This document shows, one piece after another, positions 7,349 through 36,506 of a stretch of DNA of 37,865 nucleotides. The stretch comes from Deltaproteobacteria bacterium. Lineage in GTDB: Bacteria; Desulfobacterota; Deferrisomatia; Deferrisomatales; BM512. Both the position numbers and the translations under genes were made by a program. The DNA is taken from assembly GCA_030591565.1 (NCBI GenBank), contig JAUVAU010000021.1, positions 1 through 37,865 of the forward strand, in the 5' to 3' direction. Positions within the stretch are counted from its first letter, which is position 1. Each line of letters begins with the position of its first letter. Under the pieces are notes generated by a model. That model worked only from the letters and a program-made list of their open reading frames with translations, was not told the origin of the DNA and made no database searches.

Positions 7349-7361
7349 CCACCTGAACAGC

Positions 7362-10337: not shown

Positions 10338-10339
10338 TA

Positions 10340-11890
10340 ATGGAAAGCAAAAAGAGATCGGCCACGAAGGCAGTCGCCATAACCGCCATCGTCACGCTGG
10401 CGGCAGCGACCGCAGGATTCTATGGCCTATATAAAGCTGTTCTGGTCACACCGGCGGACCATGACCACACAGCTGCGACCGAAACCATGACCGAAGAAGA
10501 AGCGCAGCTCTACAGCTGCGGCATGCACCCCTGGATCATCGCCGAGGAGCCGGGCGCTTGCCCCATCTGTGGAATGGATCTGACGCCGATACGTGACCAG
10601 GCAGGGCCGAGCGCCGCGACTACGGGTGAGCGCCAAATAGTTTACTGGCGTGCGCCGATGGACCCCACCGAGATATACCACGAGCCGGGTCAATCCAAGA
10701 TGGGTATGGACCTTGTGCCGGTCTACGACGATGAACTGGTGGGCGGCGTGGATGTGAGCATCGACCCCGTTACCCAGCAGAATATGGCGGTGAGGACCGC
10801 ACCCGTGCGCACCGCCGCGCTCATCCGCACCATCCGCACCTACGGCAACGTGGCCTATGACGAGACGCGCACCGCCCATGTACACCCCCGCTTTGGCGGC
10901 TGGGTGGAGCGGATGTATGTGGACTACACAGGGCGCAGGGTCAAGAAGGGCGAGCCGCTCTTCGACATCTATTCCCCCGAGCTTGTTTCGGCCCAGGAGG
11001 AGTATCTGGCGGCCCGCAGGAACCTCTCGGGCAAGGGCGACTCCACGCTGCTGGCCTCGGCGAGAAAGCGCCTTGCATACTTTGGCGTCCATGAGCGCGA
11101 GATAGTCAAGCTGGAGAAGAGGGGTGAGGCTACCCGCACCCTGACAATACGCTCTCCCATTGCCGGCTTCGTCACCGCCAAGAAGGTGAGCGAGGGCCAC
11201 TTCGTCAAGAAGGGCGCCCCCGTCTACGAGGTGGCGGACCTTAGCAAAATCTGGCTTGAAGCCGCCATCTACGAACACGACCTCCCCTGGGTGAAAGAGG
11301 GTCAAAAGGCGCTGGTGCGCATGTCCTACCAACCCGGTGTGACCCTTGAGGGGCGCGTCACCTACATCGACCCCTACCTCAATGTGAAGACCCGCGATGT
11401 GGTCGCCCGGATCGAGTTCGACAACGCCAGCTTGAACCTCAAGCCCGGCATGTACGCCGACGTGTCCATTGAAGCGGACGAGGGGGCCCGGGGGCTTGTG
11501 ATACCCGACGAGGCGGTCATAAGAGGCGGTTCGCGCAACGTGGTGTTCATCACCAGGGGTGATGGCAAGTTTTCGCCCCGCGATGTGACCCTTGGCGTCT
11601 CGCTCGATGACGGCACTGTCCATGTGTTGACCGGGCTGGCCCCCGGCGATGAGGTGGTCGTCTCCGGTCAGTTCCTCCTCGACTCCGAATCCAAGCTCAA
11701 GGAGGCGATCCAGAAGATGCTGGAGGCCAAGTCCGGCAGTGGGCAGACCGGTGATAAGGAAGAGGACTTCTTCGGCGATATGGCTGACGGTGCCGGTGCC
11801 AACGGTGCTAGCGCCAAGGCCAAAGGCGATGACAGCTTTTTCGACGACCTGGAGGTAGACAAGGCCGGGGAGAAGAAAAGCGATGATTGA
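10340..11890 (+). CDS. cusB: CusB-like RND periplasmic adaptor with heavy-metal-binding motifs
   Basis: Membrane-fusion protein linking the inner-membrane pump to the channel. After an N-terminal anchor (residues ~10-35), a heavy-metal-binding domain occupies residues 58-84 (YSCGMHPWI...CPICGMDLTPI) with C60, C74 and C77. A second, cysteine-free version lies at 100-129 (VYWRAPMDPTEIYHEPGQSK, then MGMDLVPVY). The adaptor body follows: a lipoyl/barrel-sandwich half-motif (VHPRFGGWVERMYVDYTGRR), the alpha-hairpin (SAQEEYLAARRNL), the second half (TIRSPIAGFVTAKKVSEG) and a beta-barrel (KPGMYADVSI). The C-terminus is an unusual acidic tail with repeated FFGDM and FFDDL motifs. The last 8 bp overlap the pump gene. 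The HMBD plus the HME-type pump point to Cu/Ag, although Zn/Co systems share parts of this architecture. Confidence 0.92.
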   Translation: MESKKRSATKAVAITAIVTLAAATAGFYGLYKAVLVTPADHDHTAATETMTEEEAQLYSCGMHPWIIAEEPGACPICGMDLTPIRDQAGPSAATTGERQIVYWRAPMDPTEIYHEPGQSKMGMDLVPVYDDELVGGVDVSIDPVTQQNMAVRTAPVRTAALIRTIRTYGNVAYDETRTAHVHPRFGGWVERMYVDYTGRRVKKGEPLFDIYSPELVSAQEEYLAARRNLSGKGDSTLLASARKRLAYFGVHEREIVKLEKRGEATRTLTIRSPIAGFVTAKKVSEGHFVKKGAPVYEVADLSKIWLEAAIYEHDLPWVKEGQKALVRMSYQPGVTLEGRVTYIDPYLNVKTRDVVARIEFDNASLNLKPGMYADVSIEADEGARGLVIPDEAVIRGGSRNVVFITRGDGKFSPRDVTLGVSLDDGTVHVLTGLAPGDEVVVSGQFLLDSESKLKEAIQKMLEAKSGSGQTGDKEEDFFGDMADGAGANGASAKAKGDDSFFDDLEVDKAGEKKSDD

Positions 11891-14800
11891 ACGCATAATT
11901 GAGTGGTCGATAAACAACAAGTTCATGGTTCTCCTCGCCACTTTGTTCGCCATAGTGGGCGGCATACTGGCGATGATGAACATGTCGCTCGATGCGATAC
12001 CTGACCTCTCCGACGTACAGGTAATCATCTACACCGAGTATGCGGGCCAGGCCCCCCAGGTGGTGGAGGATCAGGTCACCTACCCGCTGACCACCGCGAT
12101 GCTCTCGGTGCCCCACGCCAAGGTGGTGCGCGGCTACTCCTTCTTCGGGCTCAGCTTCGTCTACATTATCTTCGAAGATGGGACCGATCTCTACTGGGCG
12201 CGATCGCGAGTGCTGGAATATCTCAACTTCGTCTCCGGCAGGTTGCCGCCGGGGGTGACGCCCTCGCTTGGCCCCGACGGTACCGGGGTGGGCTGGATTT
12301 ACGAGTACGTGCTCAAGGACACCACCGGCACCCATGACTTGCAGCAATTGAGGTCTATACAGGACTGGTACCTGCGCTACGAGCTGACCGCCGTGCCGGG
12401 GGTCTCCGAGGTGGCCGCGGTGGGTGGCTACGTCAAGCAGTATCAGGTGGAAGTGGACCCGGTGAAGCTCAGGGCCTACAACCTGCCGATCCAGAAGATT
12501 CGCGCAGCGATACAGCGCTCCAATAACGATGTGGGCGGCAAGCTCATAGAGATGGCTGAGGCCGAGTTCATGGTGCGTGGGCTGGGCTACATCCAGTCGA
12601 TCGAGGATCTTAATGCGATAGCCGTGGGGGTGGATTCCTCCGGCACGCCCATATTGCTTGGAAACATAGCCGACATCCACATCGGCCCGGAGCTGAGGCG
12701 GGGCGTGGCCGAGTGGAACGGCGAGGGCGAGGTAGCCGCCGGCATAGTGATCATGCGCCACGGCGAGAACGCGCTTGAGGTTATAGCGAACGTCAAGAAG
12801 AAGCTGAAAGAGTTGGAGAGCGGCCTGCCCGAAGGGGTGGAGATAGTGGAAGCCTATGATCGCTCCGGGTTGATAGAGCGCGCCATCGACACGCTCACCT
12901 GGAAGCTGATCGAGGAGATGATGGTGGTGGCGCTGATCTGCGTCATCTTCCTCCTGCACTTCCGCTCCGCCTTCGTGGCGATATTCACCCTCCCTGTGGG
13001 CATCCTGATCTCCTTCATGGTCATGTACCTTCTCGGCATCAACGCCAACATCATGAGCCTTGGCGGCATCGCCATCGCCATCGGCGTGATGGTGGACGCC
13101 TCGGTCGTGCTGGTGGAGAACGCCCATAAGCACCTTGAGCGGGACCGGGGAAAGAAGAGCCACCTGCAGATAATCGTGGACGCCTCCAAGGAGGTCGGCC
13201 CTGCGCTTTTCTACAGCCTGTTGATCATTACCGTCTCTTTCCTGCCTGTTTTTGCGCTTGAAGAGCAGTCGGGCAGGATGTTTAAACCGCTCGCCTACAC
13301 GAAGACCTTCGCGATGGGGGCCAGCTCGATCCTCGCCATCACCATTATTCCAGTATTGATGACCTTCTTTGTGCGCGACCGGACGCTGCCGGAGGGGATG
13401 ACGCGGCGCAACCGCGTGGGCGTCTGGCTCATAGCCATGTTGGGACCGCCGCTGCTGGTTATCGCGGGCGGACTCTACGGCATCAGCCTGCCCGATTGGG
13501 CGCTGACTGCGGCGCTGGGGGTGTCGATTTTCGCCGGAGTTTGCCTGATGCCCCAGAGGATAGTAGAGGAGAGGAAAAACCCGATCAGCCGCTTTTTTGT
13601 CTGGATATACAAGCCCTTCATCCATCTCGTGCTGAGCTGGCGGAAGGTCACAGTGCTCATCGCCCTGCTGGTGGTGGGGGCGACCTGGTATCCGCTCAGC
13701 CAACTTGGCAGCGAGTTCATGCCGCCGCTAAATGAGGGCGACCTGCTCTACATGCCCACCACCCTGCCCGGTGTGTCGGTGACCAAGGCGCGGGAGCTTT
13801 TGCAGCAGACCGACAAGATCATCCAGTCATTCCCGGAGGTCCACCACACGTTGGGCAAAGTGGGCCGCGCCGAGACCGCAACCGACCCCGCGCCGCTCTC
13901 CATGATCGAGACGACCATCGTCCTCAAACCCCAGATCGTATATGAGCAGGTCGCGGTGGACCGCTTCTTCTCCGCATGGCCCGGTTGGCTGAAGGGGCCG
14001 CTGACGCTGCTGTGGCCCGAGGTGGTGGATGGCGAGATGGAGAGCGAGTGGCGAAGGAAAGGGGTGGTCCGGTTCTTTTCGGGCTGGCCCGGTTTCATCA
14101 AAGCGCCGCTGGCATGGGTATGGCCCGAAGAGCGTTACATTACCACCGACGAGCTGGTGGACGACCTTGACCGCGCCATCCAGTTCCCCGGCTTGACCAA
14201 CGCCTGGACGATGCCGATCAAGACCCGCATCGACATGCTCTCCACCGGCATCAAGACCCCGGTGGGGATCAAGATCATGGGGCCGGACCTCCAGGTGCTC
14301 TCCGATCTGGGTGAGCGGATTGAAGCCGTCGTAGGCGATATCCCCGGGACGCTTTCAGCCTATGCGGAGCGGGTGACCGGCGGCAACTACATCGATTTCA
14401 ATATCGACAGACTTCAAATTGCCCGCTACGGCCTGACCGTGGCGGATGTGCAGGAGGTGATAATGAGCGCCATCGGCGGGATGAATATCACCTACACCGT
14501 GGAGGGGCTTGAGCGTTACCCGGTCAACCTGCGCTACAACCGGGAGCTGCGTGACGACCTGGGCAGGTTGAAATCGGTGCTGGTGCCGACCCCGACCGGC
14601 GCGCAGGTGCCGCTCGGTCAGCTGGCCGAGCTTTCGGTTCACAAGGGCCCGGCGGGGATCAAGAGTGAAAACGCCCGACGCACCGCCTGGGTCTACGTTG
14701 ACCTCAAAGGGGTCGATGTGGGCACCTACGTCAAGAACGCGCAGGTGGTTGTGGACAACAATGTCCAGCTGCCCGCGGGCTACTCGATCGTCTGGTCGGG

Positions 14801-15401
14801 ACAATTCGAGTACATGGAAAAAGCGCGCAAAACCCTTGAGCTGATAATACCCATCACCCTGGCGGTGATCTTCCTGCTGCTCTACATCCACTTTCACTCC
14901 GTGGCCGAGGCGATGATCGTCATGGCGAGTCTGCCCTTCGCGCTGGTGGGGGGCGTGTGGCTCATGTACCTGCTCGACTACAACGTCTCGGTGGCGGTGA
15001 TAGTGGGTTTCATCGCGCTGGCGGGGCTGGCGGCTGAGACCGGCGTCGTCATGCTTGTGTATCTGGATGAGATCTACGAGCGGCGATTGGATGACGGTAC
15101 CCTTCGCACCACCGGCGACCTGCATTTAGCCATTATCTCGGGCGCTGCCGAGCGCGTGAGGCCCAAGCTGATGACAGTGGCGACGACCTTGATAGGCCTG
15201 CTGCCGGTGATGTACGGCACCGAGACCGGCTTGGCGGTGATGAAACGCATAGCCGGACCGATGGTGGGAGGTCTCATCTCCTCCACCATCCTGACACTGG
15301 TGATAATCCCGGCTGTCTACGATATGTGGAAGCGGTGGGAGCTGCGTGGGCACATTGAAGATGGCCCCGCCGGCGATTACGGGGAAGAGGAGGTTGCGTG
15401 A
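11883..15401 (+). CDS. cusA: CusA-like heavy-metal RND efflux pump
   Basis: Inner-membrane proton-driven pump of the HME-RND family, exporting metal from periplasm and cytoplasm. The start MIERIIEWSINNKFMVLLAT is typical of the family. Transmembrane helix 4 carries IGVMVDASVVLVENAHK, the HME signature with the proton-relay Asp and Glu. At 1172 residues it is longer than E. coli CusA (1047). The extra length lies in an extended loop around residues 500-560 with added hydrophobic segments, and in a periplasmic insertion with a duplicated Trp-rich unit: RFFSAWPGWLKGPL near residue 691 and RFFSGWPGFIKAPL near residue 729. The conserved NAWTMPIKTRIDMLSTGIKT follows. Gene overlaps on both sides show tight operon structure. 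Metal choice (Cu+/Ag+ versus divalent) is inferred from neighbours. Confidence 0.95.
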   Translation: MIERIIEWSINNKFMVLLATLFAIVGGILAMMNMSLDAIPDLSDVQVIIYTEYAGQAPQVVEDQVTYPLTTAMLSVPHAKVVRGYSFFGLSFVYIIFEDGTDLYWARSRVLEYLNFVSGRLPPGVTPSLGPDGTGVGWIYEYVLKDTTGTHDLQQLRSIQDWYLRYELTAVPGVSEVAAVGGYVKQYQVEVDPVKLRAYNLPIQKIRAAIQRSNNDVGGKLIEMAEAEFMVRGLGYIQSIEDLNAIAVGVDSSGTPILLGNIADIHIGPELRRGVAEWNGEGEVAAGIVIMRHGENALEVIANVKKKLKELESGLPEGVEIVEAYDRSGLIERAIDTLTWKLIEEMMVVALICVIFLLHFRSAFVAIFTLPVGILISFMVMYLLGINANIMSLGGIAIAIGVMVDASVVLVENAHKHLERDRGKKSHLQIIVDASKEVGPALFYSLLIITVSFLPVFALEEQSGRMFKPLAYTKTFAMGASSILAITIIPVLMTFFVRDRTLPEGMTRRNRVGVWLIAMLGPPLLVIAGGLYGISLPDWALTAALGVSIFAGVCLMPQRIVEERKNPISRFFVWIYKPFIHLVLSWRKVTVLIALLVVGATWYPLSQLGSEFMPPLNEGDLLYMPTTLPGVSVTKARELLQQTDKIIQSFPEVHHTLGKVGRAETATDPAPLSMIETTIVLKPQIVYEQVAVDRFFSAWPGWLKGPLTLLWPEVVDGEMESEWRRKGVVRFFSGWPGFIKAPLAWVWPEERYITTDELVDDLDRAIQFPGLTNAWTMPIKTRIDMLSTGIKTPVGIKIMGPDLQVLSDLGERIEAVVGDIPGTLSAYAERVTGGNYIDFNIDRLQIARYGLTVADVQEVIMSAIGGMNITYTVEGLERYPVNLRYNRELRDDLGRLKSVLVPTPTGAQVPLGQLAELSVHKGPAGIKSENARRTAWVYVDLKGVDVGTYVKNAQVVVDNNVQLPAGYSIVWSGQFEYMEKARKTLELIIPITLAVIFLLLYIHFHSVAEAMIVMASLPFALVGGVWLMYLLDYNVSVAVIVGFIALAGLAAETGVVMLVYLDEIYERRLDDGTLRTTGDLHLAIISGAAERVRPKLMTVATTLIGLLPVMYGTETGLAVMKRIAGPMVGGLISSTILTLVIIPAVYDMWKRWELRGHIEDGPAGDYGEEEVA

Positions 15402-15736: not shown

Positions 15737-15796
15737 TGAGCCTTTGAGAGGCGAAACCAAAAACCCTGCGCGATGCGGGGAGAAGGAGAGAAGCAG

Positions 15797-16333
15797 ATGA
15801 AGAAGCTTATGACAGGAGTGATGGTAGCTGCGGTTGCCGCAATGGTGGCTATGCCCGCCGCCGCCATGAACATGGGTTCCAAGCAGATGGAAGGGCACCA
15901 GATGAGTGGCAAAACGGATGGCAAGATGGACCACTCTAAAATGAATAGCGAAACGATGGGCGACATGATCCACGAGTCGATGGCAGGTGGTCATATGCTG
16001 GCCTACCATCTGATCGACAACAAAGCCCAAATGGACAAGATTAAAGACATGAAAGGCATGAAGGGGATGAAGATGGGCAGCGGCGCTGCCCAGATGAAGT
16101 CCCACCACCTCATGACCTATCCGATGAAGGACGGAAAACCCCTTGGCGGAGCCAAGGTCGGTTACCAGATTGAAGGCCCCGATGGAGCCAAACAGCAGGC
16201 GATGGCGATGGAGATGAAGGGCGGCTATGGGGCCGACGTCGAGCTCGGCAAGAAGGGCGTCTACAAGATCAAGATGAAAGCCGCCAAGGGCGACACCAAG
16301 ATACTGGACAGCTTCGATTACGAAGTGAAGTAA
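15797..16333 (+). CDS. Methionine-rich periplasmic protein, probable metal-binding
   Basis: A 178-residue precursor with a signal peptide (MKKLMTGVMVAAVAAMVAMP, cleavage near AAA-MN). The mature N-terminal half is packed with Met, His and Lys (for example KMDHSKMNSETMGDMIHESM and DMKGMKGMKMG), a composition seen in periplasmic Cu(I)/Ag(I) carriers. The C-terminal ~75 residues (TYPMKDGKPLGGAKVGYQIE onward) look like a small Ig-like beta-sandwich of the kind found in CopC/YtkA/FixH-type domains. ATG 15797 is chosen because AAGGAGAG lies about 8 nt upstream and the signal begins there. It likely plays the part of CusF, delivering metal to the adaptor, although it is not homologous to CusF by eye. 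Last gene of the cluster, converging on the OYE gene. Confidence 0.8.
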   Translation: MKKLMTGVMVAAVAAMVAMPAAAMNMGSKQMEGHQMSGKTDGKMDHSKMNSETMGDMIHESMAGGHMLAYHLIDNKAQMDKIKDMKGMKGMKMGSGAAQMKSHHLMTYPMKDGKPLGGAKVGYQIEGPDGAKQQAMAMEMKGGYGADVELGKKGVYKIKMKAAKGDTKILDSFDYEVK

Positions 16334-18796: not shown

Positions 18797-19282
18797 CTAC
18801 TCGGGCCTGATCCAGGTACCGCTGCGCCCGCCCTCTTTTCTCAGCAATTTGGTGTCGCCGATTATCATGGAGCGGTCGATCGCTTTGCACATGTCGTAGA
18901 TCGTCAGCGCCGCCACGGTCGCAGCCGTCAGCGCCTCCATCTCCACCCCGGTACGCGAAGCGGTCTTGGTGGTGGCCTCGATGTCGATGCGTTTGTCACC
19001 CTCGTCGATGGAAAAATCCACGTTCACCGCGTCGATTGTGATGGGGTGGCATAGCGGGATGAGGTCGGGGGTCTTCTTGGCCGCCATGATCCCGGCGAGC
19101 CGCGCGACTTGCAATACGTCGCCCTTCTTGATCCCACCGCCCTTGATGCGCTCAAGGGTCGAGGCCTCCATCCAGATACAGGAAGAGGCGACTGCGCGCC
19201 GCACGGTCACCTCTTTGTCGGTAACATCGACCATACGGGCAAAGCCATTTTCATCAAAATGGGTCAGGCCGTCTTTACTCAC
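18797..19282 (-). CDS. moaC: Cyclic pyranopterin monophosphate synthase MoaC
   Basis: Second step of molybdenum-cofactor synthesis, converting the MoaA product to cyclic pyranopterin monophosphate. The 161 residues carry all the family signatures: MVDVTDKEVTVRRAVA, KKTPDLIPLCHPI (catalytic Lys/His), TASRTGVEMEALTA, and DMCKAIDRSM with the conserved Lys. The start is a GTG that overlaps the TGA of the upstream secreted-protein gene, so the two are translationally coupled. No other moa/moe genes are in the window; the FmdE-like protein and OYE are not Mo enzymes. Confidence 0.96.
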   Translation of the reverse strand: MSKDGLTHFDENGFARMVDVTDKEVTVRRAVASSCIWMEASTLERIKGGGIKKGDVLQVARLAGIMAAKKTPDLIPLCHPITIDAVNVDFSIDEGDKRIDIEATTKTASRTGVEMEALTAATVAALTIYDMCKAIDRSMIIGDTKLLRKEGGRSGTWIRPE

Positions 19283-25285: not shown

Positions 25286-26221
25286 CTAGAAGTCGAAGAC
25301 ATCCGTGGACATGATGTAGCGTTCGCCGGAATCGGGGAGGATGATTACGTAAGTCTTGCCCTCGCAGTCGTTGGTCGTGGCGTGTTTTAGCGCCGCCGCC
25401 ACCGCTGCGCCGCTGGAGATGCCGCAGAGGATACCCTCTTCACGGGCCATCCTGCGAGTCATGGATATCGCTTCGTCGTCGTCCACCTGAATGATATCGT
25501 CAACCAGGTCGAGGTTGAGGTTTTCGGGTTTGAAGCCGGCTCCGATCCCCTGAATGCGGTGTGGGCCGGGAGCGCCGCCGCTTAGCACCGGACTCGCCGA
25601 GGGCTCCACCGCCACGGAGGTGATTTTTTTGTTTTTGGTGTTTTTGATGTAGTTGCTCACGCCGGTTATGGTGCCGCCGGTGCCCACTCCCGAGATGAGC
25701 ACGTCGATCTCGCCGTTGGTGTCTTCCCATATCTCGGGGCCGGTGGTCACCTCGTGTACGTAGGGGTTTGCGGGGTTTTCAAACTGGTTGGGCATGAAGT
25801 ATTCGCCTGGCCTGGAGTCGGTGATTCTGTTCGCCTCGTCAATGGCTCCGCCCATGCCCTTGTTGCCGGGGGTGAGCACCAGCTCGGCGCCAAAGGCTGA
25901 GAGCACTTTTCGGCGCTCAAGGCTCATTGTTTCGGGCATCGTGAGGATCAGCTTGTAGCCCCTGGCCGCGCAGACGTAGCCGAGCGCGATGCCGGTGTTT
26001 CCGCTGGTGGGCTCGACAACCGACATCCCGGGCTTCAGGAGTCCTTTTTTTTCTGCGGTATTTATCATGGAAGCGCCAATACGGCACTTAACTGAAAAGG
26101 AGGGGTTTCTACTCTCAATCTTGGCTAAAAAGCGTGCGTTAATTCCGCTGAATATCCGGTTGATCTGCACCAGAGGCGTGTTGCCTATACTTAGACTGTT
26201 ATCATCGTATACTCTGCTCAT
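25286..26221 (-). CDS. cysK: Cysteine synthase A (O-acetylserine sulfhydrylase)
   Basis: PLP enzyme making cysteine from O-acetylserine and sulfide. The 311 residues carry [11 protein letters not shown] with the PLP Lys, [13 protein letters not shown] (substrate loop), [15 protein letters not shown] (PLP phosphate-binding glycines) and [12 protein letters not shown] with the pyridine-N Ser region. It ends with [15 protein letters not shown], the CysK-type C-terminus. The asparagine loop motif reads as in CysK and not CysM. GAGGG precedes the ATG. It is monocistronic: a terminator follows it and a large palindrome lies upstream. Confidence 0.96.
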
Positions 26222-26386: not shown

Positions 26387-26950
26387 TTAAATGAGCTTTT
26401 TGTCTTTAAGGAAGTCGCGAACGGCTTTGGCGATATTTTCCGCTTCGGAGAGATTTTGAATCGTCTCCAGTGGAAGCAGTCCACTTGTTTTGGCGATCAG
26501 GCGGGGCAGGGCGGGGAATTTTTTCAGGGCGTGTTTCTGCGCTATGGGCGCAGCGAGGGAGGATGGGTTGGCTTCATCGCTAAAGCCCAGGGGACCCAGC
26601 CAGATTAGGTTCAGCTCCTCCTGATAAGCCTTCTTGACCGCCTTGAATGCGGCTTGGGGGTCGGCGGGAACATCCTTGCCCATCCGGGTAAGCGCGCTTG
26701 AGGCGTAGGCCAGCGCCATATCCACGTTGCCGCCGGTCATCTCTTTAAAAAGCTCGTCGCCACTTGCGTAGTCCACTATCTCAATCGTGGTTCCGGTGCG
26801 CTCGTTTATGAGGATAGCCAGCAGCTGCGCCACGACCCTGGAGCGCGCGGTGGAGTCGGTGCCTACGATAAGGGTCTTGCCCACGCAGCCAAGCGCGGGA
26901 AGGGCGACGAGGGTCAGAACCAGGAGGATGGAGAGAATTCTTCTAATCAC
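26387..26950 (-). CDS. Miniature substrate-binding protein (OpuAC-like), exported
   Basis: A 187-residue protein with a signal (MIRRILSILLVLTLVALPAL then GC, a possible but imperfect lipobox). The first mature part, TLIVGTDSTARSRVVAQLLA followed by INERTGTTIEIVDY, matches the opening of glycine-betaine/choline-type (ProX/OpuAC) binding proteins. The end, GLLPLETIQNLSEAENIAKA followed by VRDFLKDKKLI, matches their C-terminal helix. About 100 central residues, the second lobe, are missing, so it is much shorter than the usual ~280. It starts at GTG 26950 with GAGGAG upstream. No ABC permease or ATPase is nearby. It is last in the exported-protein operon, so a binding or sensory role seems likelier than transport. 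Confidence 0.65.
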   Translation of the reverse strand: MIRRILSILLVLTLVALPALGCVGKTLIVGTDSTARSRVVAQLLAILINERTGTTIEIVDYASGDELFKEMTGGNVDMALAYASSALTRMGKDVPADPQAAFKAVKKAYQEELNLIWLGPLGFSDEANPSSLAAPIAQKHALKKFPALPRLIAKTSGLLPLETIQNLSEAENIAKAVRDFLKDKKLI

Positions 26951-27025: not shown

Positions 27026-28843
27026 TCACTCTGGCCGCTTGTGTTCCACCAGATCGAATGCACGAACCATACCGTCGCGCCCGCCGATGAACAAGCGACC
27101 GCCGAGCACCGCCGGGGTGGTGTGGATCGGTTCATCCAATTTTATCCGGTCCAGCACGCGGCCGCCCTTAGGGTCGATAATATAGAGCGAACCGCCAAGG
27201 GTAGCAACCGCCAGGTATCCGTTGATGAGAGCCGGGGCCGAGCGTATGCCGCCGTCCAGCTTCCTCGTCCACTTGGCGGTGTCAAGGGTGACCCTGGTAA
27301 GACAGCCGCCATCGTCGGCGACGTAGACCGCATCCTTCAGCGTCGCCGGTTGTGCGTACCAGGAGGGGCCGCAAAGCCCGATGGCCGCGCTCAAACTTCC
27401 CGTCGTGGGGTCGATCACGTTCAGCTGTCCGTTCTTGTCGCCCGCGTAATAGCGCCCTTCTCGCTCCACGACGCCGGAGAGGAGCGGGGCTTCGCCGGTC
27501 CAGGAGAAAGTCTTCTCACCGGTGGCGGGGTCAAGTAGCGCCAGTTCGCCGCCGCTTGAGGGGGCTATGATCTTGCCGTCTCCAGAGATTGTCAGGTCGG
27601 CGCGGTGGGGAGCACCGCCCTCGTAGGTCCAGACCTTGGAGAGTTTGCCATCCTCCACGTTGAACCCGTGGACGTTGCCCGCCCAGGTGGCTACAAAGAG
27701 CGTCTTGCCACGGAAAACCGGCGCGGACTGGCGGTGGTCGTCGGCGTTGGATTCCACCTCGGTGAAGGTGTCCAGCACCTCCAGCGTCTCGCCATCCAAC
27801 AGTGCCAGCTTTCTGTCCCAGCTTTGTACCGCCAGATAATTTTTGCCGGAGATACGCGTCAGCGACGGTCTTGCGTCAACCGTGTCGCCCAGCTTGGTCT
27901 GGGCTATGACCTTGCCGGCGAGAAATCCCAGCCGTTTGACGTTACCCGACCAGTCGGCTGCGTAGACACCAAACTCATCCGCCATTATGTCGGCATCGAC
28001 GAACCCCTCCATTTCGGTCTGCCAGACCTTGGTGAGCATCGGCCAGTCAGCGGGTCCGACCTTCACCGTTCCCGCTGCCGGGTTCCTCTTCAGGTCGGCG
28101 TCGGTGTTGGTCTCGGCGCGAAAATCCAAGGGTTCTTTCTCCCACTGGTTGCCGGTGGTGGAGACGGTGCCAACGTAGAAGTCGCCCAGGCGAAAGGGCG
28201 TGTCGTTGCCGCTGAACCGGTTGCGGGTGATGCGGCTCCCCTTGTCTCCCTCGAAGAGGAAGATGCCCCGGCGGTTGTCCCTGAACCAGGAGTTTTTTAC
28301 GACGTTTTGGGAGGTCCTGGCGTTGTACCCCTTGCCTGTATTGTTGGCGAAGAGGCAGCGGTTGAACTCTATGTGGCTCTCGCCGATGCGTGTGCCATCC
28401 ACGTTGAAGCGCAAGATCGAGTCTTCGATCTTGCCGGCGGCAAAATGCAGGTGCAGTCCCCGCGTGGAACCCTCTATCACCACGTAAGAGGCTGAAATTT
28501 TACCAAAATCGACGCGTATCTCGCCCCACCTGCCGGGCGACACCATGCCATCGGCGGTGGTGAAAATGATCGGCTTTTTGGGTGTGCCGCGCGCCTGGAG
28601 GTCGCCTTCCAGCACGATGGAGATCTCGCCCCAGCCGTCATTGTCTTCATCCTTGAAGGCGAACCGCACCTCGGTGCCAGGCTCGATTATCAGTTTTTGC
28701 CCACGCTCCAGCCTGAAGGTCTCCTCAAGGGTGACCACCCCCGACCACCTTATCGCGTCGCCATCGAAGAGCGAGCCAAGCGAGGCGCAACCAAAGAACA
28801 GCGGAAGCGCAGCCAAAAGCATCAGGGGGCGTGCAAGTCTCAC
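27026..28843 (-). CDS. Lipoprotein with beta-helix and PQQ-like beta-propeller domains
   Basis: A 605-residue protein with a lipobox (LPLFFGC, Cys near residue 19). Residues ~35-240 form a right-handed parallel beta-helix of the pectate-lyase/NosD type: GTPKKPIIFTTADG, IEGSTRGLHLHFAAGKIEDS, NVVKNSWFRDNRRGIFLFEG. Residues ~265-600 form a PQQ-like propeller of repeated blades (VYAADWSGNVKRL, LFVATWAGNVHGFNVEDGKL, YYAGDKNGQLNVIDPTTGSL, LAVATLGGSLYIIDPKGG, LFIGGRDGMVRAFDL). This is a binding or scaffold protein on the outer membrane, not a dehydrogenase, since no PQQ-site residues are recognised. GTG start overlaps the TGA of the upstream lipoprotein gene. Confidence 0.8.
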   Translation of the reverse strand: MRLARPLMLLAALPLFFGCASLGSLFDGDAIRWSGVVTLEETFRLERGQKLIIEPGTEVRFAFKDEDNDGWGEISIVLEGDLQARGTPKKPIIFTTADGMVSPGRWGEIRVDFGKISASYVVIEGSTRGLHLHFAAGKIEDSILRFNVDGTRIGESHIEFNRCLFANNTGKGYNARTSQNVVKNSWFRDNRRGIFLFEGDKGSRITRNRFSGNDTPFRLGDFYVGTVSTTGNQWEKEPLDFRAETNTDADLKRNPAAGTVKVGPADWPMLTKVWQTEMEGFVDADIMADEFGVYAADWSGNVKRLGFLAGKVIAQTKLGDTVDARPSLTRISGKNYLAVQSWDRKLALLDGETLEVLDTFTEVESNADDHRQSAPVFRGKTLFVATWAGNVHGFNVEDGKLSKVWTYEGGAPHRADLTISGDGKIIAPSSGGELALLDPATGEKTFSWTGEAPLLSGVVEREGRYYAGDKNGQLNVIDPTTGSLSAAIGLCGPSWYAQPATLKDAVYVADDGGCLTRVTLDTAKWTRKLDGGIRSAPALINGYLAVATLGGSLYIIDPKGGRVLDRIKLDEPIHTTPAVLGGRLFIGGRDGMVRAFDLVEHKRPE

Positions 28844-29994
28844 GGAACCGCCCTTATGAGTATCGTAATCCCGTCGGTGGTGTCGCCCTGGGTCAACTTG
28901 AAACCGGTGCGCGGCGCGGACTTGGCAAACCCGATCATCTCGCCGCTGCGTGGGGGGCCGCCGAGCCGCTGGCGTGCGCCCAGGTAGAAGGTCCCCTCCC
29001 GCGTGGTCGCAAGGGTGAAGAGGCCATCGGGGCCTGTGGGTTCGCCCACCTCCAGGGGTTCGTTCAGCATGCGTGGGTTGTCATAGAGGCAGGGCCGAAA
29101 GCCCGCAGCCGGGGTGCCGCCGCTGTCTGTCACGACCCCGGTGAGCGTGGCGAAACGGGTGAGGTAACGCGACATCTTCTCCTGCGGCGGTATCTTCACG
29201 ACCTCGAAATCCGCCGTGAGGTGCTCGCCTTCACGCAGCGCCAGGGGCAGGGAGGGATGGATTCCGAAGAGATCGCCGGAGACCAGCGGCCCGGTTTGTC
29301 GTGAGCCTTGCCGGAGTCTCGCCGCCAGAAAATATCTGCCGGGTTCAAGAGCTATTTCAAAGGAGCCATCGGGGCCGGTGGGCATGCTCTTCACGTAGGG
29401 AGGGCCACGAAAGCCCTTGTCGGCGCGCAGATAGACGTAGACGTTCGCCCCCTCTACCGGAGCGCCGTCCATGAGTATTTGGCCGCTAATCGCCTCAACT
29501 CCGCTAGAAACAGCAACGGGATGAACCGGGGCCAGGGGCAGGCTGACGCCGCGCTGGTTGTAGTGCGCTCTCACGGGGTTTCGGCCAAAGAAGGCGAAGC
29601 CTCCCCCAGAGCCGTCAGAGACTCCATTAGTGGAACGGGCGACGAGCAGGTATTTCCCCGGAGGGGTTTTAAGGATGAAGCGGCCCGCGTCGCCCGAAGT
29701 CGTGGTCGCGGCGGGTTCCTGTTTGTCCGAGGGGGTGATGAATTGGTCCAGCGTATACAGTTCGACAGTTGCGCCGGAGACTCCCCGGCCATTTCGCGAT
29801 ACGAGGCCGTCGATGGCAATCGGGCCGGTGTCCGTGCCGACGGCCCCCACGGCAGTACCCATGACGGATCCGCTCGACTGGCAACCGGCCAGCAGTAGGA
29901 GGATAGCCAAAAAAAGAAGGCTGCTTTTAAACAGCCTTCTTTTAGCTATCGCTTTATGTGCCTTACCTAGCGGCAACCTCACCGGGCTCTTCAA
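28840..29994 (-). CDS. Lipoprotein with repeated carboxypeptidase-regulatory-like domains
   Basis: About 384 residues at the longest reading. The lipobox is LLLLAGC with Cys at residue 38, followed by a Ser/Gly linker and three CarboxypepD_reg-like beta-sandwich units. Each has the GxV-x-G-x-PVxGA-x-V and PGKYLLVA/PGRYFLAA pattern: DGLVSRNGRGVSGATVELY, SGQILMDGAPVEGANVYVYL, and TGVVTDSGGTPAAGFRPCLY. Such domains bind surface polymers or act as stalks. The start is uncertain: 29994 is a TTG inside the preceding gene, and GTG 29982 (GAAGAG upstream) is an equal choice. Residues 18-29 are encoded by an intrinsic terminator hairpin (29909-29943), which is odd and probably lowers expression relative to the upstream gene. 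Confidence 0.75.
   Translation of the reverse strand: MKSPVRLPLGKAHKAIAKRRLFKSSLLFLAILLLLAGCQSSGSVMGTAVGAVGTDTGPIAIDGLVSRNGRGVSGATVELYTLDQFITPSDKQEPAATTTSGDAGRFILKTPPGKYLLVARSTNGVSDGSGGGFAFFGRNPVRAHYNQRGVSLPLAPVHPVAVSSGVEAISGQILMDGAPVEGANVYVYLRADKGFRGPPYVKSMPTGPDGSFEIALEPGRYFLAARLRQGSRQTGPLVSGDLFGIHPSLPLALREGEHLTADFEVVKIPPQEKMSRYLTRFATLTGVVTDSGGTPAAGFRPCLYDNPRMLNEPLEVGEPTGPDGLFTLATTREGTFYLGARQRLGGPPRSGEMIGFAKSAPRTGFKLTQGDTTDGITILIRAVP
29909..29943 (-). terminator. Strong intrinsic terminator inside the lipoprotein signal-peptide coding region
   Basis: A 12-bp perfect stem (29912-29923 with 29932-29943) with an 8-nt loop. On the minus strand the stem ends CAGCCTTCTT and runs into seven T residues. 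It lies about 20 bp after the stop codon of the FG-GAP protein gene, exactly where a terminator belongs, yet the lipoprotein reading frame is open through it. Confidence 0.85.
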
Positions 29995-31426
29995 TCGTCA
30001 GGGTCTGACCGGTCTGGACGCCTTCGATGATCTTGCGTGCGCCGCTGGGGAAGCGAACTTCCACGGTGTAGACGCTGGTTGAGGAGGCTCCGAAGTGGAG
30101 CTCCTGGGGCGGCTGGGCGCAAAAACCGCTGGAGGTCTGAAGGTCAGCCATGCCGACCAGCCTCTCGCCCTCGCGAACCCATACGCGTGAACCTATCGCC
30201 ATGGAGTTGGAGATCGTGCCGGAGAGGCGGACCTTGATCCAGTTGGCGTCATTGGTGGTGTTGAGGAACATCTTGTTGGGAGCGCCCCAGTTGACCACGT
30301 AGAGGTCAAGGTCGCCGTCGTTGTCGATGTCGGCGAAGCTGGTGCCCTTGGTGCGCACCGAGGAGCACATCACCGCCTCGTTGTCCTGGGCGATGTCGGA
30401 GAAGGTGCCGTCGCCATTGTTGCGGTAGAGCTGGTTGGCCACCTTGCAGTCGCCCTCGTAGAGGTCAAGGTCGCCATCATGGTCGATGTCGCCAAAGGTC
30501 GGTCCCTTGCCCCAGCCGGTGTTCGCCAGCCCCGAGTCCTGGGCGGCGGGGGGGAAGTTGCCGGCGCCGTCGTTGACGTAGTAGCCGTTGGCCCCCACGT
30601 AGTTGGAGACGAAGAGGTCAAGGTCGCCATCGCTGTCGGTGTCGGCAAACGCCGCGCCGAGGCCCCAGTTGGAATCGGAGACGCCGCGTGCGACGCCTTC
30701 GCTGGTGAATTTTCCCTTGCCGTCGTTGATGTAGAGGGTGTTCGGCTCACCGGCGGGGTAGCGGCCGTTGATCACGTAGAGATCAGGCGCGCCGTCGTTG
30801 TTCACGTCGGCCCACACGGCCATCCAGGACCAGGAGCGGTCGCCTACGCCAGCCGTGTCGGTGACGTCGGTGAAGGTGCCGTTGCCGTTGTTGCGATAGA
30901 GGATGTTCTTGGCGCCGACGCCGTAGTTGGCGAGGTAGAGGTCGATGAAACCGTCGTTATTGTAGTCGGCCGCGGCTGCTGCGTAGGTGAACTCCTTGGA
31001 GCCCACACCCGCCTTGTCAGTCACATCGACGAACTTGCCGTCCACGTTCTTGAAGAGCCTGTTGGCTTCGATCTCATAGCGACCGCCCTTGGGCACGTAG
31101 AGGTCGACCCAGCCGTCGTTGTCAAAGTCGAAGAAGACCGAACCCATTGCGAACCCGGCGTCGTCCAGACCTTCGCCCGCCTCACCGGTGGCGTCGGTGA
31201 AGACACCCTTGCCGTCATTTATCATGAGACGGTTGGCGCCGCCCTTGTTCGAGATGTAGAGGTCCCAGTCACCGTCATTGTCGACGTCGGCGAAAGCCGC
31301 GCCCTTGCCGTTGCCGGGGTCGCCGGTGCCCGAGGTGTCAGTTACGTCTTTCATCAGGCCCGTTCCCGCCCAGGCAGGTATTGCCATGACGGTTGCGATT
31401 ACGAGGATCAAAACAAGGCGTTTCAT
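29963..31426 (-). CDS. Exported FG-GAP/VCBS seven-bladed propeller protein with ASPIC/UnbV domain (CRTAC1-like)
   Basis: A 487-residue protein with signal MKRLVLILVIATVMAIPAWA. It has seven repeats of the calcium-binding form DxDxDGxxDLY, for example FADVDNDGDWDLYISN, FFDFDNDGWVDLYVP, ADYNNDGFIDLYLAN, WADVNNDGAPDLYVIN, FADTDSDGDLDLFVSN, FGDIDHDGDLDLYEGD and FADIDNDGDLDLYVVN: an integrin-alpha-like beta-propeller. The last ~90 residues are an ASPIC/UnbV domain (SRVWVREGERLVGMADLQTS, VEVRFPSGARKIIEGV). A strong AAGGAG site precedes the ATG. First gene of the exported operon and followed by a terminator, so it is probably its most abundant product. Function unknown; surface ligand or matrix binding is usual. 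Confidence 0.9.
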   Translation of the reverse strand: MKRLVLILVIATVMAIPAWAGTGLMKDVTDTSGTGDPGNGKGAAFADVDNDGDWDLYISNKGGANRLMINDGKGVFTDATGEAGEGLDDAGFAMGSVFFDFDNDGWVDLYVPKGGRYEIEANRLFKNVDGKFVDVTDKAGVGSKEFTYAAAAADYNNDGFIDLYLANYGVGAKNILYRNNGNGTFTDVTDTAGVGDRSWSWMAVWADVNNDGAPDLYVINGRYPAGEPNTLYINDGKGKFTSEGVARGVSDSNWGLGAAFADTDSDGDLDLFVSNYVGANGYYVNDGAGNFPPAAQDSGLANTGWGKGPTFGDIDHDGDLDLYEGDCKVANQLYRNNGDGTFSDIAQDNEAVMCSSVRTKGTSFADIDNDGDLDLYVVNWGAPNKMFLNTTNDANWIKVRLSGTISNSMAIGSRVWVREGERLVGMADLQTSSGFCAQPPQELHFGASSTSVYTVEVRFPSGARKIIEGVQTGQTLTIEEPGEVAAR

Positions 31427-31520: not shown

Positions 31521-32474
31521 TCAGCCAAGAGCCATCCGGGCGAAGCCGAGAAGCATCGAACCCACAAGCCCTATCGCTATGTATGTTACCACAACTCTAG
31601 GCAAAAAAATCGCCGTAAGTGCGGCCATCGCCGGAATAGATGTAACCGGTCCGGCCATGAGGAATGCAAGGTCTGCGCCCACCGCTATACCCTTGGCTTG
31701 CAACCCCGCCAAAATGGGCACAACCGGTATCTGGTGCGCAGGCAGGGGCAGGGCAACTGCTGCCGCCGCCACCACCGAGCCGGGTCCTTTTACGCCGACC
31801 AGATTGGCTACCCAGTCGATCGGTACGTAAACGTGTATCGCCGCCTCCAGCACAATAGCCATCGCGACCCACATCCCCACAAACCCGCCCACATCGATGA
31901 AGCGGTCCACGAAGAAGCGGAACTTGCTCTCCCTGGGCACCACCGTCATCGTTTTCAGGCGCAGGCCGTTGTGGCAACCTATCTCATAGGCGCTTGCCAG
32001 CTGGCCGTTATCTTCATGTACTGGAGAAAGCTTGATAATGTTTCCAGAAAAATAGCCTGAACGCTCAAAAAACCATGTGATCATCCCCGCCGACATCCCT
32101 AAAAAGAGCGCTCCGCCCAGTTTCCACCACGCCAGATCGGCTCCAACGCCGCCCCAGGTAAGGAAAAACGAGGCAGGGTCCATTACCGGACTGGTTATCA
32201 GTAGCGCCATCAGGGGCGCCAGTGGCACGCCGGTGAGCGCCATGGGAATGACTATCGGGAGTATGCCGCAGGAGCAGAGCGGACTCAGCGCCCCGATAAG
32301 GGTAGCTGCCGGGATCGCCCATATCCCGAACTTGCCCACGAAACCGCGCACCTGGCGGTCCCACTGGAAGGTCTTTATCAGCGCGGCCAGCGTGATTCCC
32401 AAAAGGGTGAACCACCACATGCGCCCCGCCTCATACCAGATGACCTGGAAAAACTTCGCAAGATCGGGGCTCAC
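31521..32474 (-). CDS. SO_0444-family (DUF318-like) metal efflux permease
   Basis: A 317-residue inner-membrane protein with two bundles of about four helices each. The first bundle holds LSPLCSCGILPIVIPMALTG (C67 and C69) followed by LLITSPVMDPASFFLTWG; the second holds PLPAHQIPVVPILAGLQAKG and FLMAGPVTSIPAMAALTAIF. The CSCG motif and the GTPxAP-like repeat are the hallmarks of the permease family that includes the SO_0444 Cu/Zn efflux proteins and ArsP relatives. GTG start overlaps the TGA of the FmdE-like gene. As the last gene of the pseudo-AAA+ operon it gives the operon a transport role, probably of a soft metal or metalloid. Confidence 0.85.
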   Translation of the reverse strand: MSPDLAKFFQVIWYEAGRMWWFTLLGITLAALIKTFQWDRQVRGFVGKFGIWAIPAATLIGALSPLCSCGILPIVIPMALTGVPLAPLMALLITSPVMDPASFFLTWGGVGADLAWWKLGGALFLGMSAGMITWFFERSGYFSGNIIKLSPVHEDNGQLASAYEIGCHNGLRLKTMTVVPRESKFRFFVDRFIDVGGFVGMWVAMAIVLEAAIHVYVPIDWVANLVGVKGPGSVVAAAAVALPLPAHQIPVVPILAGLQAKGIAVGADLAFLMAGPVTSIPAMAALTAIFLPRVVVTYIAIGLVGSMLLGFARMALG

Positions 32475-32923
32475 GGCAGGATCTCCAGGGCCACTATCTT
32501 CTCTTCGTCCATGACTTCAAGGGCTTCAAGGACCTTTTCCCGCTCCTCCCGGCTACCACCGGCTCGCTTTATCTCGCCATACTTTTTGCCAAAGGCCAGC
32601 GCCTCTTCGGTGAGCGTCGCCCGCAGGAAGATGTTTTTGGCCTGGTTCTCAACTTCCAGCACGTGCAGCCCCTCGGGGCGTATCTCCAGGTTGCTGTTGC
32701 CCGGGGTCGTCCCCAACGCGGCCATTATGCCGTCGATGGCGCAGGTGGCGTGGCGATAGAGCGCTTTCAGGTCGTTGCCCTTTCTGTGGCGACCAACCCG
32801 TGAGGCTGCGGCGAGGCCAAGCCGTGCGCCCATTATCGACATGGGGCAGCGGTGGCCGTGGAGCCGCTCTAAAAATGCGAAGAACTCTTCCGCCTCAGAA
32901 GGCGTAGTGATGGGGGCAGTCAT
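32471..32923 (-). CDS. FmdE-like metal-binding protein
   Basis: A 150-residue protein with the FmdE (formylmethanofuran dehydrogenase subunit E-like, PF02663-type) core: LHGHRCPMSIMGARLGLAA with H22, H24 and C26, and HATCAIDGIMAALGTTPGNS with C61 and D64. The second family cysteine (GCTxGK) is replaced by GTT here, and the C-terminal zinc ribbon of full-length FmdE is absent. Despite the family name, no methanogenesis gene is near, so a stand-alone metal-binding role is likelier. It overlaps the AAA+ gene end by 29 bp and the permease start by 4 bp. Confidence 0.85.
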   Translation of the reverse strand: MTAPITTPSEAEEFFAFLERLHGHRCPMSIMGARLGLAAASRVGRHRKGNDLKALYRHATCAIDGIMAALGTTPGNSNLEIRPEGLHVLEVENQAKNIFLRATLTEEALAFGKKYGEIKRAGGSREEREKVLEALEVMDEEKIVALEILP

Positions 32924-33776
32924 TTTCCATTATCTCGTGGTAGACATCGACCATGTCGGGGGTGAGCCACGGTTCGATCTTTTTGAGCGCCGCTTCAAAA
33001 TCCTGGTGGCTGACCATATCATTATCGGCCTTGACCGCCTCCAGGGTGGCGCGCTTGCAAAGGCTCTCGGCATCCCAGCCCACGTAACCGGCGGTGAGTT
33101 CGGCGAGGTCCCTGGCGTTCACCGAGGGGTCGAGCTTGGGCATCTTTTTGAGGTAGATGTCCAGCATCCCCTCCCGGTCGATGGCGCGGGGGGGGTGGAC
33201 GAAGATCTTGCGGTTAAAACGCCTCTTTTCCTTGATTATCGCCTGGTCCACCGTGTCGATGCGGTAGCACGAACCCACCAGCATCACATCCTTGTGGCCC
33301 ATGATCCGGTCTATCTGGCGTATGAACAGCTCGCTGAGTTCCCTGTCGGCGAAGGTCGGGGGGATGCCCCTGAAGTTATCCTTGCCCCACTCGTAGGAGC
33401 AGCCGGCGCGGGGGCAGAGCCATTCGGTGTCGGAGATGAAGAGGACGCAGGGCGCTTCGTGAATCGCGTCGTCAAAGGCGTTCACCATCTGCTCGGGCTT
33501 CCCAAGCATCTCCTGGCCCGAGATGTAGACGAAGCCCACGCCAGCGTCGGTGGCGGCGGCCTCGGCCAGCATGGTGATGCCCACCCCCAGCGGTCCCCAC
33601 AACATTACGCCTGCGGGTATCCCCAGGCCCAGGGCTTCCATCTGCTCGGGTTTTTTAAGGGGAAGTGAGACCATATCGCGCACCAACTCCTTTACTTCGG
33701 CGAATCCCCCGATATCATCCCAGGTAAGGAGCGGTTTGCGTACCTCGTAGAATATTTTATCAAGCTTGCGGTGCAT
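32895..33776 (-). CDS. AAA+ protein of the Cdc48/FtsH type with inactivated nucleotide site (pseudo-ATPase)
   Basis: A 293-residue single AAA+ module. The lead LTWDDIGGFAEVKELVRDMV and PAGVMLWGPLGV are typical of Cdc48/VAT/FtsH-type AAA domains. However, Walker A reads GPLGVGIT (residues 61-68), with Ile in place of the essential Lys, confirmed on the DNA as ATC. Walker B reads VLFISDTEW (111-119) in place of hhhhDE, and sensor-1 Asn is replaced (VGSCYRID). Arg-finger-like residues (KRRFNR, 184-189) and the lid helices (AELTAGYVGWDAESLCKRA) remain. There is no N-domain or protease. It heads a coupled operon with FmdE and the permease, and is divergent from Hsp20. Confidence 0.9.
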   Translation of the reverse strand: MHRKLDKIFYEVRKPLLTWDDIGGFAEVKELVRDMVSLPLKKPEQMEALGLGIPAGVMLWGPLGVGITMLAEAAATDAGVGFVYISGQEMLGKPEQMVNAFDDAIHEAPCVLFISDTEWLCPRAGCSYEWGKDNFRGIPPTFADRELSELFIRQIDRIMGHKDVMLVGSCYRIDTVDQAIIKEKRRFNRKIFVHPPRAIDREGMLDIYLKKMPKLDPSVNARDLAELTAGYVGWDAESLCKRATLEAVKADNDMVSHQDFEAALKKIEPWLTPDMVDVYHEIMENDCPHHYAF

Positions 33777-33886
33777 GATTCCTCGATTTTCATTTGGGGT
33801 TTTATTGTGCGATTATATACGAGTATGCCACGAAAGGTTACAAGCAAACCTCGTGCCTTGAAGGTGGGCGGGTAAGGAGTATCGCA

Positions 33887-34357
33887 ATGGGTAGGGGCTT
33901 CGACGACGAATTGACGGACAAAGATTTATTGCAACTCCTCGGTCTGAGAGAGCGGATGAACAGGCTCTTTGACGAGCAGCAGCTCCACCTTGGTTCGGCG
34001 GCAACCGGCCCGGCCATGAACTGGACGCCCCCGGTGGACATAGTGGACGCAGGGAACAAATTCATCCTCACCGCCGAACTCCCCGGAGTGGATGAAGAGG
34101 CCGTGGACCTTGAGCTGGTCGGCGATTCGCTGATCCTCAAGGGCGAGCGCCCCCCCCACGTGACCGGCACCAATAGTTGCTACCATCGCATCGAGCGGCC
34201 CGAAGGCCCCTTTCGCCGCACCTTCACGCTGCCCGCCGGGGTGGACGCCTCGGCCATAAGCGCCGAGCTAAAGGATGGCGTGCTCGAAGTCCACCTCCCC
34301 AAGACCCCCTCGGAGGGCGACGGGGCGAAGGAGGTAGACGTGGAGATCGAAAGATGA
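33887..34357 (+). CDS. Small heat shock protein, Hsp20/alpha-crystallin family
   Basis: ATP-independent holdase of 156 residues. An N-terminal helical arm (RERMNRLFDE) precedes the alpha-crystallin domain from WTPPVDIVDAGNKFILTAEL through DLELVGDSLILKGERP, RPEGPFRRTFTLPAGVD to AELKDGVLEVHLPK, the G-x-L-E-V/I-x-L-P signature. ATG 33887 is set by TAAGGAG 8 nt upstream; the longer reading from 33794 would add 31 unrelated residues. Neither a CIRCE element nor a clear sigma-32 promoter was seen. It is divergent from the pseudo-AAA+ gene across 110 bp, an arrangement that suggests shared regulation. Confidence 0.93.
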   Translation: MGRGFDDELTDKDLLQLLGLRERMNRLFDEQQLHLGSAATGPAMNWTPPVDIVDAGNKFILTAELPGVDEEAVDLELVGDSLILKGERPPHVTGTNSCYHRIERPEGPFRRTFTLPAGVDASAISAELKDGVLEVHLPKTPSEGDGAKEVDVEIER

Positions 34358-35569: not shown

Positions 35570-35872
35570 ATGATTAGCCTTACTGCTTCTGAGTTAAAAA
35601 CAATAAAACATATACAGCATATCAAAAAGTCAAAACAAGTATTAGTGGTATTGTCGTATGTCTCTATAGTCTTTGGTTTAGGTTTATTTGGACTTTCCTT
35701 TTACTTAGAAAAAGAGGCAGGTTTGTATGCTAGTGCCTTTGCTTTTTTTGCTGGTTTATATCTCCTCAGGTACACATCAATGATGTGTAAAGTTTTTGAG
35801 CTGATAAACAATCATATAGATTTAAATGAAGAGTGTGGGGAAGTAATACTTAATTCAGGTGGGGAGTCTTAG
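35570..35872 (+). CDS. Two-helix membrane protein, candidate partner of Rhs tail 1
   Basis: Not recognised. A 100-residue protein with a basic N-terminal stretch (KTIKHIQHIKKSKQ), two hydrophobic helices (VLVVLSYVSIVFGLGLFGLS and a second around LYASAFAFFAGLYLL), and a charged C-terminus. ATG 35570 has ACGGAG 6 nt upstream. It is strongly AT-rich, unlike the chromosome around it. The C-terminal end (NSGGES) runs into the truncated Rhs fragment and overlaps it by 14 bp, so its last residues may be a fusion product. Position directly behind an Rhs tail is where immunity genes are found. Confidence 0.65.
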   Translation: MISLTASELKTIKHIQHIKKSKQVLVVLSYVSIVFGLGLFGLSFYLEKEAGLYASAFAFFAGLYLLRYTSMMCKVFELINNHIDLNEECGEVILNSGGES

Positions 35873-36506
35873 GGCGGTGGTGGATACGACTGGAGTAGTC
35901 GTGAAACAAATCGAATATGATACCTTCGGGAATGTGCTGTCTGACTCGAATCCATCATTTGAAGTTCCTTTCGGTTTTGCTGGAGGACTCCATGACAGAG
36001 ATACCGGCTTAGTCAGATTCGGTTTCCGCGATTACGATCCCACCATAGGCCGTTGGACCGCCAAAGACCCGATTGATTTCGCTGGTGGAGATATTAGTCT
36101 GTACAACTACGTCCTTGGCGATCCGGTGAATTTCATTGATCCGCTGGGATTGAATGCAATTCATGTTTTTCTCAATAATTTGACAACTGCATCTAGTATT
36201 GCTTCTGCTACTTCAGTTGCTACCTTAACTCCCCAAGGTCAAATTGCTGGACTTATTTTTGGGGGAATTGGACTTCTCGCTAATAGTATAGATGTATATT
36301 TATACTCTGATGACCCGGCCTTAGATGCCGCAGTTATAATTATTAAAATGCCCCTACCAAGCAATGGTCTACTCCCAGATATGGTTGATGACCTGATGAT
36401 TGACTACAGCATTGATCGTTACAAGGATAGCCGCAACAATAATGAACTCGGCAGTCCTGGCAGCCCTGGCAGTCCTGGTGGCCCTAACAACGGTGGATGC
36501 CAATGA
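35859..36506 (+). CDS. Orphan Rhs core tip with C-terminal region 2
   Basis: A 215-residue fragment of an Rhs/YD-repeat protein. Residues 2-98 are the end of the Rhs core: GSLRAVVDTTGVVVKQIEYD, FGNVL, FAGGLHDRDTGLVRFGFRDY, DPTIGRWTAKDPIDFAGGD, and LYNYVLGDPVNFIDPLGL. Everything upstream (signal, YD repeats) is missing; the match starts at GSLRAVVD, where DHLGSLRAVVD is usual. Residues 99-215 are the variable tail, with Gly-rich hydrophobic helices (GQIAGLIFGGIGLLANSIDV), an Asp-rich segment, and a Gly/Ser/Pro tail ending in Cys-Gln. The GTG start has no convincing ribosome site, so independent expression is doubtful. Confidence 0.8.
   Translation: MGSLRAVVDTTGVVVKQIEYDTFGNVLSDSNPSFEVPFGFAGGLHDRDTGLVRFGFRDYDPTIGRWTAKDPIDFAGGDISLYNYVLGDPVNFIDPLGLNAIHVFLNNLTTASSIASATSVATLTPQGQIAGLIFGGIGLLANSIDVYLYSDDPALDAAVIIIKMPLPSNGLLPDMVDDLMIDYSIDRYKDSRNNNELGSPGSPGSPGGPNNGGCQ

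Follow-up and report, generated by a model that had tools for sequence, protein, structure and literature searches.

A conserved pseudo-AAA, FmdE and permease operon and its possible place in a larger anaerobic cofactor system

What do a degenerate AAA protein, an FmdE-family protein and a membrane permease accomplish when their genes overlap? The question is raised by three genes in the window, the whole stretch of 37,865 nucleotides that was analysed. A preliminary description had read them as a coupled operon for a metal or metalloid handling machine.

Three overlapping genes and their products

All three genes lie on the minus strand: the pseudo-AAA gene at 32895..33776 (293 aa), the FmdE-family gene at 32471..32923 (150 aa), and the gene of an ArsP_1/DUF318-family permease at 31521..32474 (317 aa, GTG start). 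The open reading frames, the strand and the overlaps, 29 bp between AAA and FmdE and 4 bp between FmdE and permease, are exactly as first described. The same uninterrupted gene order is found in 17 distinct genomes, which belong to several families. The arrangement is therefore more than chance, and gene order marks the three as a real and conserved operon. The preliminary description had proposed a search for conserved co-occurrence, and held that the idea would fall if the genes were scattered in relatives or if FmdE and permease never came with the AAA protein. The genes were not scattered, and FmdE and permease regularly accompany AAA; the statement that the combination has no described counterpart also holds.

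Close relatives of the AAA protein are encoded on 14 genome contigs, from Deltaproteobacteria, Deferrisomatales, Nitrospirae, Actinobacteria, Desantisbacteria and others; a fifteenth match (33% over 87 residues) was set aside as generic AAA. Of 395 genomes sampled from the organism's own phylum, 22 encode such a relative, as do 11 of the 12 from its own order. This order is probably Deferrisomatales, as the Deferrisomatales contig L007 and G285, a genome of the same order, match at the same place. The AAA gene has no adjoining FmdE and permease genes in the Nitrospirae, Actinobacteria and Desantisbacteria loci. Conversely, FmdE and a related permease are present with the GeoRSP cassette, without AAA, in genome G025.

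The AAA protein is a CDC48/PAN-like single AAA module with its lid. PF00004 matches with 59.6 bits (Pfam cut-off 21.2) and the lid model PF17862 also scores over its cut-off. The predicted structure (pLDDT 90.8) is a p97/PAN-type AAA module with TM-scores of about 0.75–0.8 to classical AAA ATPases of this type, so that the fold and lid of a classical AAA ATPase are both present. The nearest sequence relatives are VAT and p97, VAT being the closest. The Walker A lysine, the Walker B Asp-Glu and the sensor-1 asparagine of active classical AAA ATPases are missing: alignment with VAT places Ile (GPLGxGI), [ST]-Asp (LFI[ST]D) and Tyr (GS[CA]YR, typically GSCYR) at these positions. The second arginine-finger residue, R186, is retained. 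The C-terminal tail, DCPHHYAF, follows the family pattern DC[PS]H[HY]Y-x-F. Motif losses and tail are kept in nearly all relatives across phyla, which bears out the earlier label of pseudo-AAA+. Having lost all three catalytic residues (Walker A Lys, Walker B Asp, sensor-1 Asn), the family is not expected to hydrolyse ATP as AAA proteins normally do. As the ATP chemistry is gone and yet conservation is strict, the protein must have another selected role, which may be that of a scaffold. A proteasome-docking HbYX tail was considered and rejected, as the final residues are Y-x-F and not hydrophobic-Y-x. Thus, while fold and motif order are shared with CDC48/p97, VAT and PAN, the protein differs from these in being a single short module without N domain, in the three lost catalytic residues and in its unique tail.

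The FmdE protein belongs to PF02663 (65.2 bits, Pfam gathering threshold 22.9). The preliminary description had pointed to HGHRC (residues 22–26) and C61 as metal-ligand residues. Both are present and invariant, and H22, H24, C26 and C61 align with the metal ligands His15, His17, Cys19 and Cys55 of 2glz. By this alignment the protein keeps the four-ligand Zn/Ni site. It shares the core domain and the four ligands with the solved family members (2glz, 2gvi), and consists of the core domain only, without the C-terminal zinc-finger tail; two of three solved PF02663 members have a zinc finger. Family members have a large cleft, and a ligand of unknown identity sits at the metal-site cysteine of one of the structures (PMC2954224).

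The permease consists of two membrane halves and belongs to PF03773, ArsP_1 (119.4 bits, gathering threshold 32.3). The CSCG membrane motif noted earlier is present as SPLCSCG, with C67 and C69 both invariant in six aligned sequences. The best NCBIfam matches are SO_0444 (NF033936; 93.4 bits, cut-off 300) and SaoE (80 bits, cut-off 325), and membership of either was rejected on these scores. The designation 'SO_0444-type' thus stands at the Pfam family level but not at that of the equivalog. An SAO organometal system was also rejected, because the permease alone resembles it; a literature search found no paper describing that system. Compared with the SO_0444 Cu/Zn efflux proteins, SaoE and ArsP, the permease has the same Pfam family and CxCG motif, but falls far below the equivalog cut-offs and forms a distinct clade tied to AAA. 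This clade (at least 230 bits) is found in 25 of 30 AAA-positive and in 0 of 41 AAA-negative genomes, and lies near the methylase and U32 genes in Nitrospirae. Searches against solved structures gave no sequence match and no significant fold match; the weak fold matches in the PDB (E 0.1–1), which include the anion transporters TRAP, NaS1 and VcINDY, are a hint only. A second, lower-scoring ArsP_1 paralogue is encoded elsewhere in the genome (G000:C92; L133 9311-10267, minus strand), and such a paralogue is present in most AAA-positive genomes.

Neighbouring genes in the window

Downstream of the permease gene, on the same strand, follow genes for a secreted FG-GAP/UnbV_ASPIC repeat protein (29963..31426), a CarboxypepD_reg-like putative lipoprotein (28840..29994) and a putative lipoprotein with beta-helix and PQQ-type repeats and a strict DDHRQ motif (27026..28843), all three recurrent neighbours. 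Next is a small secreted OpuAC-half protein ('C3', 26387..26950, CVGK...FLKxxKLI), found in 25 of 30 AAA-positive against 2 of 41 AAA-negative genomes. The minus-strand cysK gene (cysteine synthase A, 25286..26221) is a recurrent neighbour in the organism's own order and a candidate member of the system. Relatives also have DUF362 and NapH-like Fe-S membrane protein genes downstream of the operon.

An hsp20-type gene (33794..34357, plus strand) diverges from the AAA gene, as first noted. Translation of this gene probably begins at the ATG at 33888, and the divergent intergenic region (33777-33887) is short. The proposed link to stress was rejected as a feature of the whole system: an hsp20 homologue adjoins AAA in six loci, all from the organism's own order, and none adjoins it in the remaining loci of the organism's family. 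A scan for sigma-70 promoters was uninformative.

Elsewhere in the window, a CusABC-like heavy-metal efflux set lies at 7381-15401 on the plus strand (two TolC-type proteins, a periplasmic adaptor and an RND pump), and behind it comes a gene for a small Met/His-rich protein at 15773-16333; both were named by eye, and no link of the efflux set to the operon was seen. A moaC-like gene (18797-19282, minus strand) is of interest because a UbiV-like partner is encoded elsewhere in the genome near moeA. An Rhs-repeat-like, C-terminal protein fragment is encoded at 35859-36506 (plus strand).

Genes inherited together with the AAA gene

Phyletic profiling covered 71 genomes, 30 with and 41 without the AAA gene. 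A UbiU-like gene of a U32 subfamily (at least 150 bits) was found in 29 of 30 AAA-positive against 3 of 41 AAA-negative genomes (Fisher p = 2e-15), and a UbiV-like gene in 27 of 30 against the same three of 41 (p = 5e-13). All Fisher tests in this section are inflated by the shared ancestry of the sampled genomes, which were sorted by thresholds chosen after gaps in the scores were seen; at the family level and without the organism's own order, p was 4e-5, for about 104 families as counted from their labels. The U32, UbiV-like and AAA genes are directly adjacent, AAA being last, in Actinobacteria, bin676 and families f30 and f90. The only U32 protein of the organism's genome belongs to this subfamily, and its gene lies on G000:C28, away from the contig of the operon. 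On G000:C28 (L069), a gene of the tetrapyrrole-methylase subfamily described below (4120-4962) and the UbiU-like gene (6972-7895), both on the plus strand, are two genes apart.

Both partners keep the four cysteines of a 4Fe-4S motif, spaced CX6CX12CX35C in the UbiU-like and C..CX15CX3C in the UbiV-like protein. The published spacings are CX6CX16CX38C in UbiU and CXnCX12CX3C in UbiV (PMC6747719). The UbiU equivalog cut-off of 440 bits was not reached by the organism's own protein (60.4 bits) or its relatives (60–81 bits overall). The likeness to the UbiU-UbiV-UbiT system of anaerobic ubiquinone hydroxylation lies in paired U32-type proteins with matching Fe-S motifs, whereas the third partner is a pseudo-AAA protein instead of the lipid-binding UbiT, and the pair is accompanied by GeoRSP and a relative of the tetrapyrrole methylases.

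The methylase is a new, weakly CobM-like subfamily of the tetrapyrrole-methylase superfamily. It occurs in 20 of 30 AAA-positive and 1 of 41 AAA-negative genomes, with a clean score gap (257 against 155 bits), and is encoded upstream of the U32 gene in most U32 loci; it is missing in f30/f90, Actinobacteria and Desantisbacteria. In the organism's order the UbiV-like gene forms an operon with moeA and mobB, and a SPASM-like protein is encoded near by; moeA, mobB and UbiV-like genes stand back to back in L135 (7362-9884, plus strand). The moeA and UbiV-like genes overlap in family f25 and in L143, and no moeA linkage was seen in f85 and f100. Literature searches on U32 with tetrapyrrole methylase, and on neighbourhoods of FmdE with permease, returned nothing relevant.

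The GeoRSP cassette comprises PqqD (TIGR04302), radical SAM/SPASM (TIGR04303) and SPASM (TIGR04304) proteins. Among the 395 genomes of the phylum, the search for TIGR04303 gave 26 matches, in 19 of 22 AAA-positive and 7 of 373 AAA-negative genomes (p = 8e-24). Three AAA-positive genomes (G247, G343, G176) had no match in this search, and five AAA-negative genomes outside the AAA-positive families carry GeoRSP. The organism's own radical SAM protein (G000:C75) scores 406.5-406.9 bits, above the cut-off of 400, and its gene directly follows a PqqD gene, with YedE and PhnD genes upstream. The best PqqD (70 bits, cut-off 100) and SPASM (52 bits, cut-off 300) matches in this genome stay below their cut-offs; the latter is encoded near the UbiV-like gene. 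The parts of the system are spread over four contigs (C71, C28, C3, C75) in the organism itself. In two other genomes (G027 and G325), AAA, beta-helix, DUF362, PhnD and GeoRSP genes share one cluster of ~13 kb. In the AAA-negative G025, one cluster holds beta-helix, OpuAC-half, ResB-like, ArsP_1, FmdE, PhnD-like and YedE genes together with the GeoRSP PqqD, radical SAM and SPASM genes, and all three GeoRSP proteins exceed their NCBIfam cut-offs; the pseudo-AAA, the UbiU/UbiV-like pair and the methylase subfamily were not found in this genome. Its ArsP_1 permease has a C-terminal extension (L144, G025:C1:443500-463400), and apparent NikR and CbiM genes after the complete GeoRSP cluster hint at Ni or Co. 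YedE (TIGR04112) and cysteine-desulfurase-like genes are present in many loci. No paper on GeoRSP was found in the literature search. In the loci read, the interval between PqqD and radical SAM genes seemed too short to encode a small precursor peptide, in a search that was not exhaustive.

In these profiles the AAA gene is co-inherited with the UbiU/UbiV-like pair and often the methylase, and also, within the organism's phylum, with the radical SAM gene of GeoRSP. Sequence and co-occurrence together give good support to the operon's membership in a larger system. Its genes, about a dozen, include those for the UbiU/UbiV-like pair, the methylase, the three GeoRSP proteins, YedE and periplasmic lipoproteins.

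Proposed role and competing explanations

The reading preferred here, with a probability of roughly 45%, is that the operon is the scaffold, metal-holder and export branch of a larger anaerobic system for a cofactor or modified peptide, an extended GeoRSP. Such a product is suggested by the enzyme types, namely radical SAM with PqqD, methylase and Fe-S hydroxylase-like pair; radical SAM and PqqD proteins occur together in the PQQ and mycofactocin systems. Export and use in the envelope are suggested by the permease and the secreted partners. The radical SAM/SPASM/PqqD proteins, the methylase and the UbiU/UbiV-like pair would build and hydroxylate the cofactor in the cytoplasm, hydroxylation being predicted. 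The pseudo-AAA protein, possibly as a ring, would be a scaffold on which the Fe-S pair assembles independently of nucleotide, perhaps through the invariant Cys/His tail. FmdE would hold a metal or a metal-bound intermediate, and the permease may move the product or metal across the inner membrane. In the envelope, the beta-helix/PQQ-repeat, FG-GAP, OpuAC-half and DUF362/NapH-like Fe-S proteins would use the product in a redox process. No product, precursor peptide or target enzyme was identified in the system. A more detailed version, which must be called doubtful, is an unrecognised redox-cofactor pathway in which GeoRSP, the methylase and an O2-independent UbiU/UbiV-like hydroxylase would work on the dead AAA protein, FmdE would metallate the product, ArsP_1 would export it, and periplasmic beta-helix and beta-propeller proteins would use it for envelope electron transfer.

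The metal or metalloid handling machine of the preliminary description would be self-contained and serve detoxification or trafficking, with FmdE as the metal binder, the permease as exporter and AAA as scaffold. The ArsP_1 family does include known organoarsenical and Cu/Zn exporters, the FmdE ligands and the CSCG motif are conserved, and the window also contains a CusABC-like efflux cluster. However, the permease misses the SO_0444 and SaoE cut-offs, AAA is co-inherited with biosynthesis-type enzymes and is also found in loci that lack adjoining FmdE and permease genes, and the second permease paralogue of most AAA-positive genomes could do the detoxification instead. A stand-alone three-gene machine is unlikely: as the main reading it was rejected, outweighed by the co-occurrence data that make the operon a branch of the larger system.

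The same gene set could instead mature molybdenum or tungsten, possibly selenium-bearing, enzymes, by modifying molybdopterin or loading it, or sulfur or selenium, onto an envelope enzyme. The moeA-mobB linkage in the organism's order and the moeA overlap in f25 are in keeping with this, as are an apparent tungstate ABC transporter and moeA after AAA in Actinobacteria, joined in one genome by moaA/moaC (all named by eye), and the YedE and cysteine-desulfurase-like genes. The loci examined showed no recognisable gene for a molybdo- or tungstoenzyme, though, no moeA linkage was seen in f85/f100, and the role of YedE as a selenium transporter is itself unproven (PMC11097638); this reading too appears improbable. 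Finally, AAA, U32 pair and GeoRSP might be functionally unrelated and travel together as part of the many genes that anaerobes share, most AAA-positive genomes being of one phylum and close relatives not being independent. This is very unlikely, as several families of the phylum show the pattern and so do Nitrospirae, Actinobacteria and others, adjacency comes in changing combinations, and the U32 pair is absent from 38 of the 41 AAA-negative genomes, which are of that phylum.

Under the preferred reading of a larger cofactor system, GeoRSP, a named but uncharacterised NCBI cassette, is linked by phyletic profile and shared clusters to the pseudo-AAA protein, the UbiU/UbiV-like pair, the methylase, FmdE and the permease, which joins scattered genes of 'unknown function' into one testable pathway. 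The AAA protein is a bacterial single-module pseudo-AAA under strict conservation, and its operon suggests a physiological setting in which FmdE may act. Should a new cofactor come to light, it would bear on how anaerobic bacteria, largely uncultivated ones, run their energy metabolism.
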